Shown in pieces: positions 31,405-45,433 of a stretch of 50,272 nt of DNA (the stretch's first letter is position 1; every line of letters starts with the position of its first letter). Below the pieces are notes generated by a model that did not search any database, was not told where the DNA came from, and worked only from the letters and a program-made list of their open reading frames with translations. The stretch is taken from the NCBI GenBank assembly GCA_949293185.1, contig CASFCQ010000032.1, positions 1-50,272 of the forward strand, written 5' to 3'. This DNA comes from an uncultured bacterium. GTDB taxonomy: Bacteria > Cyanobacteriota > Vampirovibrionia > Gastranaerophilales > Gastranaerophilaceae. The position numbers and the translations under genes are program-made.

Positions 31405-32562
31405 TTAACTGTAGAATTTTTGTAAATTTTTAAACTCTGTCTTTAGCCTTTTTGCAATATTTTCATTTGGTTCTATCAAATATATTTTTTCTGGACAAGT
31501 TATACCTTTATTTTCTTCATAATTAGAGGCACCAATATATGAGAATAGGTAGTTATTGTAGAGATTGTATGAAGAATTTTGATTCAAAATTTTTTGAACA
31601 TAGTATTCAAAAGAATTTTTAATGTTATAAAAAAATGTTACCTGTCGATGTTTGCCACCTTGTTTAGCAGAAAAATCTATTTCATCAATAGACTTACCCC
31701 TATCGGACTTTCGTGCATTTCCAATAAAAACATGTAAATCGTCATAATTTTCAGGGTCATAATATAACCAATCTGTGTGTGGATGAAGCAAATAATATCT
31801 AGCCTTATCACAAATATATAAACTTTCGCTTTTCAATGTCGTCGTATGATATTTATATCTAAGAGAAGTTTCATATGAATTTCCTATCGAATTAGCAAAA
31901 ATAGCATTTGCATGATGTCTAGGATTATAATCAGACATATTATCAGGTAATGTGTATTCAAAAGTAAATTCTGGAAAGGGAATATAATGCCACACACACG
32001 ATTTCCATTCCTCATCGTAATTACAACTCCAATTACCATAGTCTTGAACATATATCTCTAGTCGTTCTCTTGGGGATAGTAGTAGACCGAAACGTTCTCT
32101 CCACATTTCTGCAATTTGAGCTTCTGTTGCTGATTGGTCAACAGGAGTATTTACAGAACCATTTCGAGTGTATATTACTCCTGCCCTTATTATTTGATGT
32201 TTAGTCTTTATTTGTTTATCTTTCAGTAAAAAATATGGACGATAATTAGTCTTTTTAATTACTAAAATATCAATTATCTTGCCTGCAACATTTAATGTTT
32301 TTATATAAACTTGTGGAATTCTATTAAAATTAGATGTGCTTAATAAATTACATAAGTTATCTTGATTTAGCCTATTTGAGGAGATATCAGAAAATATTTT
32401 TTCTGCCTCATTATATCCAATTACTATATATCTATCCGACTTTGCATCTGAATTTGCCATACATAATACATCAAGAATAAGACACCCTGTATCTTTATAC
32501 CATTCTTGCTTAAAATCCAAAAAATCATTTTCAGTTAAATTTAAAAGGTCTAATAACTCCAT
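31405..32562 (-). CDS. AlbA_2 / Schlafen-type domain protein
   Basis: A 385-residue protein. The N-terminal 150 residues show the AlbA_2 (putative DNA/RNA-binding, Schlafen-core-like) pattern: TENDFLDFKQEWY, VLCMANSDAKSDRYIVIGYNE, then the domain end IIRAGVIYTRNGSVNTPVDQSATEAQIAEMW. The remaining 230 residues (from about 155) match no domain I know and are rich in aromatic and charged residues. Such proteins occur as regulators and in phage-defence contexts, where the AlbA_2 domain may bind or cut nucleic acid. The start ATG at 32562 places the domain at the N-terminus. It is convergent with the HEPN gene. Confidence 0.7.
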   Translation of the reverse strand: MELLDLLNLTENDFLDFKQEWYKDTGCLILDVLCMANSDAKSDRYIVIGYNEAEKIFSDISSNRLNQDNLCNLLSTSNFNRIPQVYIKTLNVAGKIIDILVIKKTNYRPYFLLKDKQIKTKHQIIRAGVIYTRNGSVNTPVDQSATEAQIAEMWRERFGLLLSPRERLEIYVQDYGNWSCNYDEEWKSCVWHYIPFPEFTFEYTLPDNMSDYNPRHHANAIFANSIGNSYETSLRYKYHTTTLKSESLYICDKARYYLLHPHTDWLYYDPENYDDLHVFIGNARKSDRGKSIDEIDFSAKQGGKHRQVTFFYNIKNSFEYYVQKILNQNSSYNLYNNYLFSYIGASNYEENKGITCPEKIYLIEPNENIAKRLKTEFKNLQKFYS

Positions 32563-36204: not shown

Positions 36205-37059
36205 ATGAAAAAGACTGAAAAAGACATTAAAACATCAATTAAACTGTTTGAGGATTTTAAGGTGAGAACATCGTGGGATAGAGAGAAAGAAACTTGGTAT
36301 TTCTCTGTTGTCGATATTGTCGGTATATTGTCAGATAGTAAAAATCCTAATAATTATTGGAAAGTGTTAAAAAACAGGCTACGCAAGGAAGGTAGTCAGT
36401 TGGTTACAAGTTGTAACCAACTGAAAATGCAATCTTCTGATGGAAAGTATTATAAAACCGATGTTCTTGATACAGAAGGTGTTTTACGACTTGTTCAGTC
36501 TATACCAAGCCCTAAAGCTGAACCTTTTAAGTTGTGGCTTGCAAAAGTCGGCAGAGAAAGGCTTGACGAAATTCAAGACCCAGAAATCGCTATTAATAGG
36601 GCATTACAATATTATTTAGCTAAAGGCTATTCTCCGGAATGGGTAAACCAACGCTTAAAGTCCATTGAAATCAGAAAAGCATTAACTGATGAATGGAAAA
36701 GAAGCGGTGTTGCAGATAATCAATACGGCATTCTTACTGATATATTAACGCAGGAATGGTCAGGCATGAAAACTCGGGAGTATAAAGATTTTAAAGGCTT
36801 AAAGAAGGAAAGCCTAAGGGATAATATGTCTAACATGGAACTTGTTTTAAATATGTTAGCGGAAGTTTCAACAACTGAAATTTCTAAAGAAAAGAACCCG
36901 AAAACGTTAGAAGAGAATAAATCTGTAGCAAAACAGGGTGGAAGCGTTGCTAAAGAAGCACGAAAACAAATTGAATTACAGACAGGAAAGCCTGTTATTA
37001 CTGATGACAACTTTTTGCCAAAGAGCAGAAAACTAAGGCAGATAGAGAATAAGCAATGA
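36205..37059 (+). CDS. BRO-N domain (phage antirepressor / DinD-like) protein
   Basis: A 284-residue protein with a BRO-N domain at about 10-115 (IKLFEDFKVRTSWDREKETWYFSVVDIVGILSDS, VLDTEGVLRLVQSIPSPKAEPFKLWLAKVGRERL). The tail has AKQGGSVAKEARKQIELQTGKPVIT, typical of the DinD-like branch. BRO-N proteins bind DNA and are common in phages and mobile elements as antirepressors or damage-response factors. It is preceded by a ribosome binding site (aaggag). Its stop overlaps the ATG of a small membrane peptide (ATGA). Confidence 0.75.
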   Translation: MKKTEKDIKTSIKLFEDFKVRTSWDREKETWYFSVVDIVGILSDSKNPNNYWKVLKNRLRKEGSQLVTSCNQLKMQSSDGKYYKTDVLDTEGVLRLVQSIPSPKAEPFKLWLAKVGRERLDEIQDPEIAINRALQYYLAKGYSPEWVNQRLKSIEIRKALTDEWKRSGVADNQYGILTDILTQEWSGMKTREYKDFKGLKKESLRDNMSNMELVLNMLAEVSTTEISKEKNPKTLEENKSVAKQGGSVAKEARKQIELQTGKPVITDDNFLPKSRKLRQIENKQ

Positions 37060-37263: not shown

Positions 37264-37809
37264 ATGAATAAGAAAGCTGAACCGATAAAGAACAGAAAAG
37301 ATATTGAGAAGATTGAACAATACTTGAAATTACATAACAAAAGAGATTATGTAATATGGGTACTTGGAATGAACTCCGGTTTACGAGTTTCGGATATTGT
37401 AGGGTTAAATGTTTCGGATGTTGTTAATAAAACCCATATTACAATCGTTGAGAAAAAGACCCAGAAATTGAAAAGTTTTTACATTAACGACAAATTAAAA
37501 CGAGTTTTGAAAGATTTTACAAAGGGTAAAAACCTTGAAGAACCTTTATTTCTCGGCAAGCAAGGTAAGCGATTAGACAGGTCACAGGTCTATCGGTTCA
37601 TTGTCAGAGCCTGTAAAGAAAACGGAATAACCGCCCACGTTTCAACTCATACGATGCGAAAATCTTTCGGTTATCATCACTATCAGAAATTTAAAGACCC
37701 TATTGTATTGCAGAAAATATTTAATCATTCAAGTCAGAGAATAACTCTCATGTACATTGGGGTTGAACAGGACGAAATAGATTTCAGTTACAAAAATTTT
37801 GAACTTTAA
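37264..37809 (+). CDS. Minimal tyrosine recombinase
   Basis: A 181-residue site-specific recombinase with only the catalytic domain. The complete active-site set can be read: Arg41 (GLRVSD), Lys65 or 64 (VEKKT), His129 and Arg132 (HTMRKSFG), His155 (NHSS) and Tyr164 (MYIG). The usual N-terminal core-binding domain is missing, as in short integrases of plasmids and integrative elements. It may resolve dimers or invert or excise a segment. Perfect repeats lie immediately upstream (37213-37262) and downstream (37844-38035), either of which could be its site. Confidence 0.85.
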   Translation: MNKKAEPIKNRKDIEKIEQYLKLHNKRDYVIWVLGMNSGLRVSDIVGLNVSDVVNKTHITIVEKKTQKLKSFYINDKLKRVLKDFTKGKNLEEPLFLGKQGKRLDRSQVYRFIVRACKENGITAHVSTHTMRKSFGYHHYQKFKDPIVLQKIFNHSSQRITLMYIGVEQDEIDFSYKNFEL

Positions 37810-37843
37810 AAGTTCTTAATACCTAAACAGCCCCAGAATGTAG

Positions 37844-38035
37844 TGCCCCATTTTGTACCATATTGATACAATTTACCCTATGATAGCAAATATACGCAAA
37901 ACACAGGCTTTTGTCAAACCGTAAACAGCCCTCATTTTGTTGCAATTTAATAATATTTCTCTGTTCTTTATATGTTAGGACTTTTTTATATCAGTCATTT
38001 TCAGAGTTTGCCCCAATATGGTACAAAATGGGGCA
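37844..38035. repeat. 22-bp perfect inverted repeat pair upstream of the vWA operon
   Basis: Left arm 37844-37865 begins tgccccattttgtacc and ends atattg; right arm 38014-38035 is its exact reverse complement. The arms lie 148 bp apart, between the recombinase and the vWA gene. Each arm contains GTACCATATTG (or its complement), which also occurs at 30154-30164 and, with one change, at 47079-47089. The right arm ends 24 bp before the ATG at 38060. The pair may be paired operators, recombination sites or termini of a small insertion. Confidence 0.7.
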
Positions 38036-38059: not shown

Positions 38060-38749
38060 ATGAATGAACAAACACCTTATGGAATTGAAGAACAAGATAT
38101 TAAGTTTGATGTTATCGAATTTGCTGAAAATCCAGAGCCGAGGTGTCCTTGTATATTGTTGTTAGATTGTTCTGGTTCTATGAATGGTGCGCCTATACAG
38201 GAATTAAATAATGGATTAAGAACATTTCAACAGCAACTTAGCAATGATGACTTAGCATCAAAACGTGTTGAGGTTACTGTATTAACATTTGATACCGATG
38301 TCAGAGTAATAAATGAATTTGAAGTTGCAGAAAATTTTGAGCCTAAAGAATTAATAGCAGGTGGTCTGACAAGTATGGGTAGAGCCATTGAACGTGCTAT
38401 AAATATGTTAGAACAAAGAAAAGCTGTTTATAAAGCTAATGGGATTTCATATTACAGACCTTGGATATTCTTATTAACAGATGGTGAACCTACTGATGAT
38501 TATTTTAATGCAATGAATGCTGTTCATGAGGGAGAGAAGAAAAAGCAATTTGCATTTTTTGCAGTAGGTATTCAAGGTGCTAATATGGAAATTTTAAAAC
38601 AGATTTCAGTAAGAGAGCCATTGCCGTTAAAAGGATTAAACTTTACATCCTTGTTCCAATGGTTATCAAACTCTATGTCATCTGTTTCAAGGTCATCACT
38701 GGATGCTGAAGTTGCATTAGAATCTCCAAGTGGATGGGCTAAGATATAA
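38060..38749 (+). CDS. TerY-like von Willebrand A domain protein
   Basis: A 229-residue cytoplasmic vWA protein. The MIDAS metal site is complete: DCSGS (Asp36, Ser38, Ser40), Thr in GGLTSMG and Asp in LTDGEPTDD. Similarity is to TerY/YegL proteins, which form a triad with a PP2C phosphatase and a kinase (the 'TerY-P' triad; E. coli yegL, pphC and yegI are related). Metal-dependent protein binding is the expected role. It is the first gene of a six-gene operon. Its stop overlaps the next start (TAATG), and a ribosome binding site (aaaggaat) precedes it. Confidence 0.85.
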   Translation: MNEQTPYGIEEQDIKFDVIEFAENPEPRCPCILLLDCSGSMNGAPIQELNNGLRTFQQQLSNDDLASKRVEVTVLTFDTDVRVINEFEVAENFEPKELIAGGLTSMGRAIERAINMLEQRKAVYKANGISYYRPWIFLLTDGEPTDDYFNAMNAVHEGEKKKQFAFFAVGIQGANMEILKQISVREPLPLKGLNFTSLFQWLSNSMSSVSRSSLDAEVALESPSGWAKI

Positions 38750-39546
38750 TGAATTGGAAATATTTATGTTCATCGGTTAGAGGTACCTCTCATGAGTCAA
38801 TGGACTTACCAAAACAAGATAATTATCGAATCATTGAGTTGTTGGTAAATGATAAAAATTATCTTATTTCTGCTGTAGCTGATGGGGCAGGAAGTGCGAA
38901 ATATTCAGATTTATCATCGGATTTTATTTGTAAGTTATTCCTTAAAAAAACAAAACAGTGGCTTAAATCTGACAATAGCCTTGAAGATTTAACTAGAGAG
39001 ATAATTATAGATTGGTTTACTAGATTCCGGTCAGTTCTTGAAAGGGCTGTCAAAATATACAGACTAAATTCCACAAGAGATTTTGCAACGACATTGTTGT
39101 TTTCTGTATTAAGTAAGGATTGTAATATTTTTGTTCAAATAGGTGATGGTATTATTGCAATAAACAATGATAGTGCTTTAGAATGTGTCTTTTTACCACA
39201 AAATGGAGAATTTATTAACACCACACACTTTGCAACTGAAGCTGTTGCAACAAGTATTTTTATGTTTAAGACAACAAAAGAACCTGTAAAGTATTTAATA
39301 ATGCATACAGACGGCATTGAGCATATTGCATTTAACTTTGCTGAACAAAAGCCTTTTTTACCATTTTTCACCCCATTTCTTAAAGCTTTAAACAATAGTA
39401 CAAATACCGGACACATAGAAACTTTATCAAAACAATTAAGTGTTTTCCTTCAATCTGACAGAGTAAACAAAAGAACAGATGATGATAAGACCTTATTAGT
39501 AGTTCTTACCTGTGGGGAATTAAAGGGGGCTTATCAAAATGAATAG
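38749..39546 (+). CDS. PP2C-type protein phosphatase of the TerY-P triad
   Basis: A 265-residue PP2C_2 phosphatase that removes phosphate from Ser/Thr. Metal-binding and catalytic blocks are KQDNYRI, VADGAGSAKYSD, FVQIGDG, MHTDGIE and TDDDKT. The start is fused to the vWA stop codon (TAATG), and its end overlaps the TPR gene by 8 bp. It probably opposes the kinase encoded two genes downstream, on shared substrates in the same complex (inference from the known triad). Confidence 0.85.
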   Translation: MNWKYLCSSVRGTSHESMDLPKQDNYRIIELLVNDKNYLISAVADGAGSAKYSDLSSDFICKLFLKKTKQWLKSDNSLEDLTREIIIDWFTRFRSVLERAVKIYRLNSTRDFATTLLFSVLSKDCNIFVQIGDGIIAINNDSALECVFLPQNGEFINTTHFATEAVATSIFMFKTTKEPVKYLIMHTDGIEHIAFNFAEQKPFLPFFTPFLKALNNSTNTGHIETLSKQLSVFLQSDRVNKRTDDDKTLLVVLTCGELKGAYQNE

Positions 39547-40714
39547 CAACCAGTATGTAGATAAAGCAATATACTTGCTAAATAATACATTATACACAGA
39601 AGCCTTAAGAGAATGTTCAAAAGCTATTGAATTAGACCCTAATAATGCGGAAGTTTATGAGATAAAAGGAATAGCTTATTATTCAGTTGAAGAGATTAAT
39701 AAAGCCTTAGATTGTTTTAATAAAGCAATATCTCTAAACAGTAAAAGCTCCAGGGCATTTTGTTACAGAGGAATTTGTTATAGTACATCGTTGAAGGCAA
39801 CATTGAAAGATATAATTTCCTTTAATAAGCCTTCTTCTTTTACTCTCAAAGGTTTTGACTTAGATAAATCAGTGATTGAAGCATTTACTCAATGTATTAA
39901 TGACGAAACAATGGCAATACAACTTGATAGTGATAATTTACAAGCATATCAAGCGAGGGGAATTGCTTATTTTTGGTTAGAGAAATATGAATATGCATTA
40001 ATTGATTTAAATAAAGTTATTAATCTTTGTCCTAATAATGATGGATTTGAAACAAGAGCCCAGATTCACTTCTTGTTCAATAATTACAACGAAGCAATAA
40101 ATGATATAAATTATGTCATTAAAAATAATCCTGAGAAACCCATTGCTTATGATATCCGTGGGCGTTCTTATTACTTACAAAAGGAATATGATAAATCTGT
40201 AGCCGATTTATCAAAAGCAATTCAGTTAAATCCTAGTAATGATATGGCATATTATTATCGAGGCTGTTCTTATTATTTCAAAGACAGTTACAACGAAGCA
40301 ATAACAGATTTTGAAAAATGCATAAAGTACAATCCAGCTAATTACAGTGCTTATGATTATAAAGCTCGTTGTCATTGGTTTAAAAAAGAGTTTTTGCAAG
40401 CAGTACAAGATGAAACAATTTCTATATCAATAAATCCAAATAATGGCAGTGCCTACGATTTTCGTGGTCGGGCATTTTATTTCTTAAAGGATTATGATAA
40501 TGCAATTTCAGATACAAGTAAAGCTATCGCATTAGGTATCAATAACTATAGTGTTTTTGACTGTAGAGGTCGTTCTTACTTTTATATGCAACAGTATAAA
40601 AAAGCGATTGATGATTTCAAAACTGCTCTTCAAAGAAAACCTAATAATAGAGAACTTACTGAATTTCTTAAAATAGTTTACTCAGAAATGCAAGCAGAAG
40701 GATTGGTGAAATAA
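39539..40714 (+). CDS. TPR-repeat protein in the vWA-phosphatase-kinase operon
   Basis: A 391-residue cytoplasmic protein made of about nine TPR units (e.g. YLLNNTLYTEALRECSKAIELDPNNAEVYEIKG, DYDNAISDTSKAIALG), covering nearly the whole length. An irregular insertion lies near 88-115 (LKATLKDIISFNKPSSFTLKG). It lies between the phosphatase and the kinase, overlapping the former by 8 bp and leaving 1 bp to the latter. TPR proteins commonly hold such partners together, so it may be the scaffold or sensor of the system. Confidence 0.82.
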   Translation: MNSNQYVDKAIYLLNNTLYTEALRECSKAIELDPNNAEVYEIKGIAYYSVEEINKALDCFNKAISLNSKSSRAFCYRGICYSTSLKATLKDIISFNKPSSFTLKGFDLDKSVIEAFTQCINDETMAIQLDSDNLQAYQARGIAYFWLEKYEYALIDLNKVINLCPNNDGFETRAQIHFLFNNYNEAINDINYVIKNNPEKPIAYDIRGRSYYLQKEYDKSVADLSKAIQLNPSNDMAYYYRGCSYYFKDSYNEAITDFEKCIKYNPANYSAYDYKARCHWFKKEFLQAVQDETISISINPNNGSAYDFRGRAFYFLKDYDNAISDTSKAIALGINNYSVFDCRGRSYFYMQQYKKAIDDFKTALQRKPNNRELTEFLKIVYSEMQAEGLVK

Positions 40715-40715
40715 T

Positions 40716-42524
40716 ATGACAACTTCTGCAAGAAAATATCAAGACGACTTAGGTAATACTATTATTTTAGGACGAGAACTTGCCAGAGGGGGAGAAGGAA
40801 TTGTTTGTCTTGTAGAAGGTAGACCTGATATAGTAGCTAAACTGTATTCAGATAAAGCATTAAAGAAACACGATAAAGCTAATAAAATTATTGCAATGTG
40901 TAAATTATTTGATAAAAATATTGCCAAATTTTCTGCACTGCCTCAAAGAGTCCTATATGACAATAGAGGGAGAGTCGCAGGTTTTCTTATGGAAAAGATT
41001 AACGGATTTGAAGAAATACATAAGCTTTATAATATATCTAACAAAAGGAAATACTTTAGTTTTGCTGACTGGGGATTTATGGTACACGCTGCTAAAAATT
41101 TAGCCTGTGCTATTGAAACCTTACATAGTAAGGATATTGTTATTGGTGATATAAATCAAGGGAACATTTTAGTTGATAATCAAGCAATGATTAAACTTAT
41201 TGATTGCGATTCATATCAAGTCGAATATAATGGCAAGTGTTATTTATGTGAAGTTGGTGTTCCTGAATATACTTCACCGGAACTTCAAGGACAATCTTTT
41301 GCAGGGATTCATAGAACAAAAAATCATGATGCATTTGGTTTAGCAGTCATGATATTTAAAATTATAATGTTTGGAAAACATCCATATAGTGGAGTCGGTG
41401 CACCCTCCGAAATAGAAAATGCTATTCAACAGGGATACTATAGTTTTGCTTCTGGAGCATTACAACCACCCCCTGGTTCAGCTCAAAGTTATTATTCTCA
41501 AATTTTTTCTACATTAAACAATGATATTAAAGATATGTTTGAACGAGCTTTTAGTTCCCAAAGCAATGTTCAACGTCCTACGGCACAGGAATGGATAACA
41601 GAGCTTGATAAATTAGAAAAAGAATTAATAACTTGTCCGAAAAAGCACAAATATATTGGTAATAGCAAGAATTGTATTTGGTGTATGCTTGAAAAACAAT
41701 GTTTTGCCCCTTTTGAAAATAAATCACCTAAGCCAAGTTTTAATCCCATTCCAACTCCGGTGCAAACACCTTATAGGCAACAGCAATATAATACCTCCAA
41801 TAATTTTTCTTCAACCAACATAATAATGTTTTTAAAGCAGCATATACAAGCGGTTGTCGGGGTTATCTTTGTTGTATTGATAGTTGCTATTTTAGCGAAT
41901 CTTGATGAACAATCATCAACAACATATACTCCTAATGTTACCACGGAACAAGAACAACAAACTTATACACATCAAGATAGAACATATACAACAACTTCAC
42001 AAAATCCCACTTCTGAAACAAAGCCTAAAGAAGTAAGCGAGGTAAGCAACACTGTAAAGAGCAAGAATATTGATGAATTTAAAAGCCTTTTCTTAAAAAC
42101 CATACAAAACAACTGGAAACAAGACCCTAACCAAGGTGAAATTGCTATAGAAGTAACATTAAATAAAAATGGTTCTATTGCTAGTATTGAATCACTCGAT
42201 GAAATAAGTACCAACCCTGAACATCCTGACTACAATTTCATACGTGCTAAGAATGCAATCAAAAAAAATGTTTCATGGGGTAGTTTACCAAGTAATTATT
42301 CCCCTAATTCTTTAACTTTACAATTACAATTTTCTCTGAACAAGGTAGAAATTATTAATAATCCACGACGTACAAATTATTCAGTTTCCAAAGGTGTGGA
42401 AAAACAGGAAAATACTCCTAATGTACAGAATAATACCGGTTCAAAGGTTCAAACGGCAAAACGAGAAGTACCTAGAAGTACCAAAACTGATTTACAGAAG
42501 TCGCAGGATTGGTTCTTTGAATAG
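40716..42524 (+). CDS. Transmembrane protein kinase with a C-terminal TonB-C-like domain
   Basis: A 602-residue protein. The kinase domain (about 15-300) has the Gly-rich loop ARGGEGIV (23-30), Lys42 (VAKLYS), catalytic Asp145 and Asn150 (IGDINQGN), metal Asp163 (LIDCDSYQ) and the activation segment GVPEYTSPEL. It belongs to the YegI-like group found with TerY-type vWA and PP2C genes. A Cys/His cluster (C307, H311, C320, C323) may be a zinc ribbon. One membrane helix follows (about 378-395). Residues about 455-545 resemble the C-terminal domain of TonB and would lie outside the cytoplasm. Such a domain on this kinase type is unusual to my knowledge. Confidence 0.82.
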   Translation: MTTSARKYQDDLGNTIILGRELARGGEGIVCLVEGRPDIVAKLYSDKALKKHDKANKIIAMCKLFDKNIAKFSALPQRVLYDNRGRVAGFLMEKINGFEEIHKLYNISNKRKYFSFADWGFMVHAAKNLACAIETLHSKDIVIGDINQGNILVDNQAMIKLIDCDSYQVEYNGKCYLCEVGVPEYTSPELQGQSFAGIHRTKNHDAFGLAVMIFKIIMFGKHPYSGVGAPSEIENAIQQGYYSFASGALQPPPGSAQSYYSQIFSTLNNDIKDMFERAFSSQSNVQRPTAQEWITELDKLEKELITCPKKHKYIGNSKNCIWCMLEKQCFAPFENKSPKPSFNPIPTPVQTPYRQQQYNTSNNFSSTNIIMFLKQHIQAVVGVIFVVLIVAILANLDEQSSTTYTPNVTTEQEQQTYTHQDRTYTTTSQNPTSETKPKEVSEVSNTVKSKNIDEFKSLFLKTIQNNWKQDPNQGEIAIEVTLNKNGSIASIESLDEISTNPEHPDYNFIRAKNAIKKNVSWGSLPSNYSPNSLTLQLQFSLNKVEIINNPRRTNYSVSKGVEKQENTPNVQNNTGSKVQTAKREVPRSTKTDLQKSQDWFFE

Positions 42525-44821: not shown

Positions 44822-45415
44822 TTAACTTTTTATAGACTCGGCATATTTATAAAACGTACTTTTAGCGATGTTACACATTGACATTACATCCTTTACTTTA
44901 ATCAATCCTTGTGAATAAAGTTCATACGCTCTTAGAAAATCTTTCGGAATTTCAGCTTTAGGACGACCAAACTTAACCCCTCTTTGTTTTGCGGATGCAA
45001 TACCTTCTGATTGTCTGGTTTTAATATTTAATCTCTCACGTTCTGCTACGTATCCAAGTAATTTAAGAATAATATCTGTAATTAATCTGCCTGTTAATCC
45101 ATTTTGATTATCACGTGTATTGAGTACAGGCATGTCAAGCACTTGTATATCAACTCCCATATTAATAATGGCTTCCCATTCATTACATATCTGTTTATAA
45201 TTTCTGCCAAATCTATCTATTGAATGTACTATAACAAGGTCTCCGGCTCTTAATTTAGCCTTCATCTGTTGATACTTTTCACGACCCACAAAGTTTTTAC
45301 CCGAAGCCTTTTCAATTATAATTTCATCAACTTTTAAACCTTTAAGGCTGTCTATTTGTCTATCTTCTTTTTGTTCTCTTGTTGAAACTCTTATATATGC
45401 AAATGTTTTACCCAT
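44822..45415 (-). CDS. Serine recombinase (resolvase/invertase family)
   Basis: A roughly 197-residue small serine recombinase. The catalytic Ser is in AYIRVSTREQ near the N-terminus. Conserved Arg residues follow in KLRAGDLVIVHSIDRFGRN, then the E-helix region and a C-terminal helix-turn-helix (LIKVKDVMSMCNIAKSTFYKY). It probably resolves dimers or inverts DNA inside the element. The frame is open to a TTG at 45421, but the ATG at 45415 gives the usual 'MGKTFAYIRVST' start. It is the last gene of a leftward phage-like cassette. Confidence 0.85.
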   Translation of the reverse strand: MGKTFAYIRVSTREQKEDRQIDSLKGLKVDEIIIEKASGKNFVGREKYQQMKAKLRAGDLVIVHSIDRFGRNYKQICNEWEAIINMGVDIQVLDMPVLNTRDNQNGLTGRLITDIILKLLGYVAERERLNIKTRQSEGIASAKQRGVKFGRPKAEIPKDFLRAYELYSQGLIKVKDVMSMCNIAKSTFYKYAESIKS

Positions 45416-45433
45416 AATCAACTTACCTTCTTT

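Follow-up and report, generated by a model that had tools for sequence, protein, structure and literature searches.

The DNA analysed here (the window) is a 50,272 bp stretch of contig CASFCQ010000032.1 from an uncultured member of the Gastranaerophilaceae (assembly GCA_949293185.1), and the element in question is a putative invertible promoter lying between a compact tyrosine recombinase gene and an operon whose first gene encodes a vWA protein. This intergenic region contains an exact inverted repeat, whose two 22 nt arms (bp 37844–37865 on the + strand and 38014–38035 on the − strand) are 100% complementary and lie 148 nt apart. The left arm, the candidate recombinase-side recombination site, begins 34 bp after the recombinase stop (37809), and the right arm, the candidate cargo-side site, ends 24 bp ahead of the vWA ATG (38060). 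A sequence-only reading of this DNA had reported a perfect repeat of this length and spacing between the two genes and a motif shared by its arms, and the repeat search bears it out with exact coordinates; the motif GCCCCA is present at 37845 in the left arm and reversed at 38029 in the right arm. The same motif recurs at 38010 and at 37830–37835 (+ strand), the latter 15 bp before the left-arm copy, where it could speculatively be an accessory site. The repeat search lists 18 inverted pairs across the window (minimum length 18, distance at most 3000), of which this one alone is fully complementary; the 22-mer with up to three mismatches occurs only at the two arm positions in the window and not at all in shuffles, and no further copy of the 17-mer arm core with up to two mismatches is found elsewhere in the 2.2-Mb genome.

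A repeat in this position accompanies the recombinase family. Of 152 distinct loci, 120 have a recombinase at least 50% identical and at least 397 bp of downstream sequence; in 57 of these 120 a repeat with a score of at least 15 is present within 400 bp after the recombinase, versus 0 of 600 shuffles, and control stretches 600–1000 bp further on have one in 2 of 114 cases. A chance repeat is thus ruled out by the shuffles, both in the window and family-wide. The spacer measures about 142 bp (138–146 bp in the middle half of the loci) and the first arm begins 24–45 bp after the stop (middle half). Arm sequences vary between recombinase subfamilies, whereas where the arms lie and how far apart they are is conserved, a pattern to be expected if the recombinase brings its own sites along. 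An earlier scan, limited to 300 bp and to spacers of at most about 260 bp, gave 54 of 139 loci at this score, as compared with 5 of 133 upstream stretches and 1 of 417 shuffles, and was widened because it is blind to the 319-bp element of loci L118 and L121; the sample includes 60 further stretches taken in listing order, with contig-end stretches and the tail of the list left out. In the near relative L005 the switch is collinear with that of the window and its arms are imperfect. Relatives of the recombinase below 50% identity have no repeat at a score of at least 12 (0 of 14), and none of eight Bacillota plasmid relatives, chosen among 20 listed records out of 1,996, has one at 15 or more (one of the eight, L178, scores 13), so the repeat is not supported as a general property of the recombinase superfamily.

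The sequence-only reading had also predicted that a recombinase would flip the segment between the arms, and comparison of 141 of the 152 distinct loci reveals the inverted orientation in five independent sets of relatives. The window's segment (37866–38013) is reversed in L043 at 97% identity; measured against the window, L003 and L004, the L043 segment is reversed with 97.3–97.9% identity over 187–190 bp, its flank before the switch is collinear with all three, its flank after the switch is collinear with L003, and its recombinase, read across two frames, is 99% identical to the window's. The other four sets are pairs that each span two genera. L007 (G188, g41) and L008 (G038, g17) have 7.5 kb in common at 98.8% identity except for 195 bp, arms included, that are exactly reversed and 100% identical. 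The reversed segment is 176 bp (97.7% identity) in L160 (G034, g13) and L164 (G170, g6), 319 bp (98.7% identity, 19–337 bp after the recombinase stop) in L118 (G159, g13) and L121 (G073, g17), and 148 bp (87.2% identity) in L083 (G143, g18) and L084 (G323, g41), which are the same places as L014 and L013. Reversed segments with collinear flanks are the signature of site-specific inversion. An assembly artefact is an unlikely source of the reversed orientation, because the arms, at about 20 bp, should be shorter than usual reads and because the L007 and L008 segments are exact, 100% identical reversals of each other between shared flanks. Among 72 distinct loci, from L003–L103 only, contigs end within 250 bp after the recombinase in seven and within the same distance before it in two, which hints weakly that samples may contain both orientations and that this breaks assemblies.

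The segment contains a near-consensus promoter, TTGACA-17-TATATT (37889–37917, − strand; 11 of 12 consensus bases), which after inversion would, by arithmetic, occupy 37962–37990 on the + strand. It faces the recombinase gene in the window and faces the cargo in L043 and L008; since the window's promoter points at the recombinase gene, the vWA operon should be OFF in the assembled window. A promoter with at most one mismatch is present in 13 of 22 near relatives (recombinase identity at least 70%, with 235 bp downstream) versus 4 of 880 shuffled stretches, and where arms are defined its -10 element lies mostly 16–26 bp from the nearer arm, the exceptions being L054 (48 bp) and L083 and L084 (36 bp). 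Among the 17 near relatives with a promoter score of 2 or better, three are ON (L008, L043 and L084, the last nearly tied with the opposite direction at 2 versus 2.5) and 14 are OFF; among all 68 loci with a repeat score of at least 12, eight are ON and 20 are OFF. No terminator was found in the switch region, and the degenerate promoter pattern had no match in viral contigs. The on/off control by inversion that had been proposed for this operon is consistent with a promoter that changes direction with its segment in relatives, from which an effect on expression would follow.

The recombinase gene (37264–37809, + strand) encodes a 181 amino acid protein that consists of the catalytic domain only (PF00589, E=1e-24) and is the presumed invertase. 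Six residues, R41, K65, H129, R132, H155 and Y164, are conserved in 128–129 of 129 aligned relatives, and we read them as the catalytic set. The protein has no N-terminal domain and its best solved relatives are Xer proteins, yet it falls far short of the named families: it scores 43.6 and 45.3 bits against the FimB/FimE models (NCBIfam PRK09870/PRK09871; cut-offs 221 and 222), 96.1 bits against XerA (cut-off 220, with the C-terminal part alone matched), and lower still, relative to cut-off, against XerC/XerD. Its relatives are mostly in records named Candidatus Gastranaerophilales, Melainabacteria or Galligastranaerophilus, and a few carry the label Clostridium, Fusobacterium or uncultured bacterium. 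Within the window genome's own family, 247 of 383 genomes and 34 of 41 genera have a match (E at most 1e-40), as do 9 of 23 genomes of its genus, its own counted (E at most 1e-20). A phage collection gave a single 138-base match, in a Streptococcus phage. Three Bacillota relatives (L178, L179 and L180) lie beside HNH genes on phage-like plasmids, two of them also beside P27 terminase genes, surroundings that hint at a phage origin of the invertase. In L028 (5798–6340), L034 (5807–6337) and L016 a second small recombinase-like gene follows the first directly or lies close to it, and tandem switches may therefore be present in some polysaccharide loci.

Taken together, we put at roughly 0.88 the probability that this is a self-contained invertible-promoter switch, in which a tyrosine recombinase and its 22-bp sites control the vWA/PP2C/TPR/kinase operon. 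Most likely the adjoining 181 amino acid recombinase acts on the two sites and reverses the segment, and the switch probably turns the adjoining operon on and off at random. The recombinase would pair the arms and exchange strands inside them, leaving the segment reversed. In the ON state transcription would pass the cargo-side arm into the vWA operon, the start of which has a ribosome-site-like stretch, AGAAAGGA; in the OFF state it would head towards the recombinase gene's 3′ end. Speculatively, the additional GCCCCA copy at 37830, beyond the left arm, might make the sites unequal and bias the switch. From the sequence comparisons we infer the identity of the recombinase as the actor, ongoing flipping in this strain, expression that follows orientation, and bet-hedging.

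Several observations weigh against this interpretation. The other 63 of the 120 loci do not reach a repeat score of 15, and the large clade around L021 offers no reversed pair, its near relatives being collinear. Promoter direction is ambiguous in 40 of the 68 loci with a repeat score of at least 12, and the count of promoter-like sites across the window region is not above that of shuffles. Both orientations are known from comparison between relatives, and their coexistence within one population is a prediction. In the nearest reversed relative, L043, the recombinase (1430–1973) is split over two frames and is 1 bp longer; either this is a sequencing error, or the recombinase may have been lost after a flip to ON and the operon possibly locked in that state. 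Finally, the window encodes a serine recombinase (44822–45421, − strand) with a phrog_125 'DNA invertase' match (E=3.5e-48).

The predominance of OFF orientations (14 of the 17 clearly scored near relatives, promoter score at most 2) would suit a fossil switch, one that flipped formerly and is now locked OFF in this genome; this is unlikely, because a switch that no longer works should decay and here the arms are perfect, the recombinase frame is open and the catalytic residues are present. It is distinctly unlikely that the recombinase is chiefly an integrase or cargo-exchange enzyme of a mobile backbone, with the arms as attachment sites and inversion as a side reaction. Its PHROG integrase match (E=3e-58) fits that idea, as does the end of homology between the window and L003 only 13 bp past the right arm, where the cargo differs, but the near-constant distance from promoter to arm and the narrow range of spacer length point to selection on a switch. 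An invertible promoter flipped by some other enzyme, such as the serine invertase-like protein just mentioned or a distant tyrosine recombinase, is improbable: fimS can be flipped by the distant FimX and IpuA (PMC6083910), but among the loci compared (flanks of at most 5 kb) a relative of the serine invertase-like protein is encoded only in L113 and L040 (32%), and the repeat keeps a fixed place after the tyrosine recombinase gene while its arm sequence varies by subfamily. The looped-repressor alternative that the sequence-only reading had offered, with the arms as operator sites and no inversion, would account for arms that match perfectly, share the GCCCCA motif and adjoin a promoter but is very improbable and is rejected, because five independent sets of relatives have the DNA between such arms reversed, which looping alone leaves unexplained, and the repeat accompanies a recombinase family.

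The cargo downstream of the switch in the window is a set of four + strand genes that encode a vWA protein (38060–38749; PF00092, E=1e-12), a PP2C-type phosphatase (38749–39546; PF13672, E=5e-40), a TPR-like protein (39539–40714; TPR read by eye from the translation) and a protein kinase (40716–42524; PF00069, E=1e-15). The same set is present in L004, and related sequences are in L005 and L054 (Pfam was run on the window's proteins only). By Pfam, vWA, PP2C and kinase genes thus stand together in the window, a combination reminiscent of the TerY-P triad. The kinase matches PD-T4-6 and mad6 in PADLOC; as these matches are weak and mainly over the kinase domain, a defence role for the window's operon is a guess. 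Elsewhere in the window PADLOC gives strong matches to two phage-defence candidates, PDC-S50 (31405–32562, − strand; E=8e-66) and PDC-S13 (36205–37059, + strand; Bro-N, E=2.5e-131), so this part of the window has the look of a mobile island rich in defence genes.

Other loci have quite different cargo. That of L003 includes a radical SAM protein along with one that has a CBS domain, and in L043 an AAA ATPase belongs to the same set; only these two loci were scanned for this cargo. L003, L043, L145, L153 and L159 all pair an AAA ATPase whose matches are IetA-like with a radical SAM protein whose viperin (pVip) matches are weak, and this recurrent pair is possibly an unnamed conflict system. L008 carries a PLD/SNF2 helicase gene and, behind it, a type IIG-like gene; the cargo of L010 is an Eco57I-type restriction-modification (R-M) set, and that of L013 begins with an EcoRI-type methylase. 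The first cargo gene encodes a glycosyltransferase in L015, L082, L026, L042 and L052, and L028 has a nucleotidyltransferase. Further loci have large, putatively adhesin-like first cargo proteins, one of three scanned having a Pfam match (L064, Chlam_PMP, borderline), and the 319-bp reversed element of L118 and L121 precedes a putative secreted or adhesin-like gene.

The window and L003 have 4955 bp in common at 89% identity, up to bp 38048 (13 bp past the right arm), with no alignment beyond, and L003 shares its other (AAA/radical SAM) cargo with L043. Reversed pairs across genera and differing cargo on similar backbones thus suggest that the switch moves horizontally with its cargo and that the cargo is replaceable. 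Switch and recombinase would then travel on a horizontally spread backbone ahead of exchangeable cargo (R-M, defence-like, polysaccharide and putative adhesin genes). As an even bet, we would go further and regard these loci as plug-in cassettes, each a catalytic-domain-only tyrosine recombinase and an invertible promoter of about 190 bp, that spread between Gastranaerophilales genera in front of defence or conflict operons and surface loci, exchange cargo past the cargo-side repeat and are mostly OFF, such that phage defence on mobile DNA would be bet-hedged.

The proposed switch resembles several known systems. The features of fimS/Tsr-type switches recur in our loci: a recombinase gene with catalytic residues beside the switch, inverted repeats around about 0.1–0.3 kb, an outward promoter whose direction flips (as judged from sequence), and both orientations, in relatives. 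In Bacteroides fragilis, Tsr19 (BF2766) has an invertible promoter directly downstream of its tyrosine recombinase gene, followed by a surface polysaccharide operon (PMC4747536), and the likeness lies in this order of recombinase gene, invertible promoter and operon and in its working. Tsr19 also flips a distant promoter (PMC4747536), whereas a search for a second site came up empty in the genome studied here, which belongs to another phylum and whose relatives' cargo takes in R-M and conflict genes. In L032 the arm sequence is present at more than two places, and the L030-like stretch is displaced by about 158 bp, downstream of the recombinase; L030 and L032 look as if they had a multi-site switch, like the several repeats described for Tsr19. 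The fimS (FimB/FimE) and ipuS (IpuA/IpuB) switches of E. coli similarly have a compact tyrosine recombinase of about 200 amino acids beside a promoter segment with inverted repeats; ipuS is 260 bp, and short repeats of 7–16 bp bound such segments (PMC6083910). Here the arms are longer (22 bp), the segment is shorter, and the recombinase is far below the cut-offs of FimB/FimE-type models. XerC, XerA and XerH have a homologous catalytic domain, but the 181 amino acid window protein is without their N-terminal domain and likewise far below the NCBIfam cut-offs. Phase-variable R-M systems in which tyrosine recombinases on mobile DNA invert parts of hsdS (PMC11892184) are alike in placing R-M under such inversion; there specificity changes within the coding sequence, whereas in our loci the flipping element would be a promoter in front of an entire R-M operon. 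Invertible promoters before methyltransferases have been suggested (PMC10333322), and a serine recombinase that acts by inversion is described in the context of phage adsorption (PMC12529663).

A literature search turned up no paper on phase variation in Gastranaerophilales, which is weak evidence as subscription literature was mostly outside it; for Melainabacteria it gave one paper, on flagellins, and none of the matches listed pairs Melainabacteria with inverted or invertible repeats. In Gastranaerophilales, a local tyrosine-recombinase invertible promoter is thus apparently undescribed, and it seems to have spread between genera there. The class of mechanism is known, and what appears to be new is the lineage, the cross-genus spread and the use before whole defence-like cassettes. 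If this interpretation is true, uncultured gut bacteria would have a means to vary their surface and their phage defence, and the orientation of the 190-bp segment, which could be counted in any metagenome, would be a ready read-out. The placing of entire R-M systems under an invertible promoter, on DNA that crosses genera, would make the cost-of-defence idea testable, and defence would be bet-hedged in a non-photosynthetic sister lineage of the cyanobacteria.
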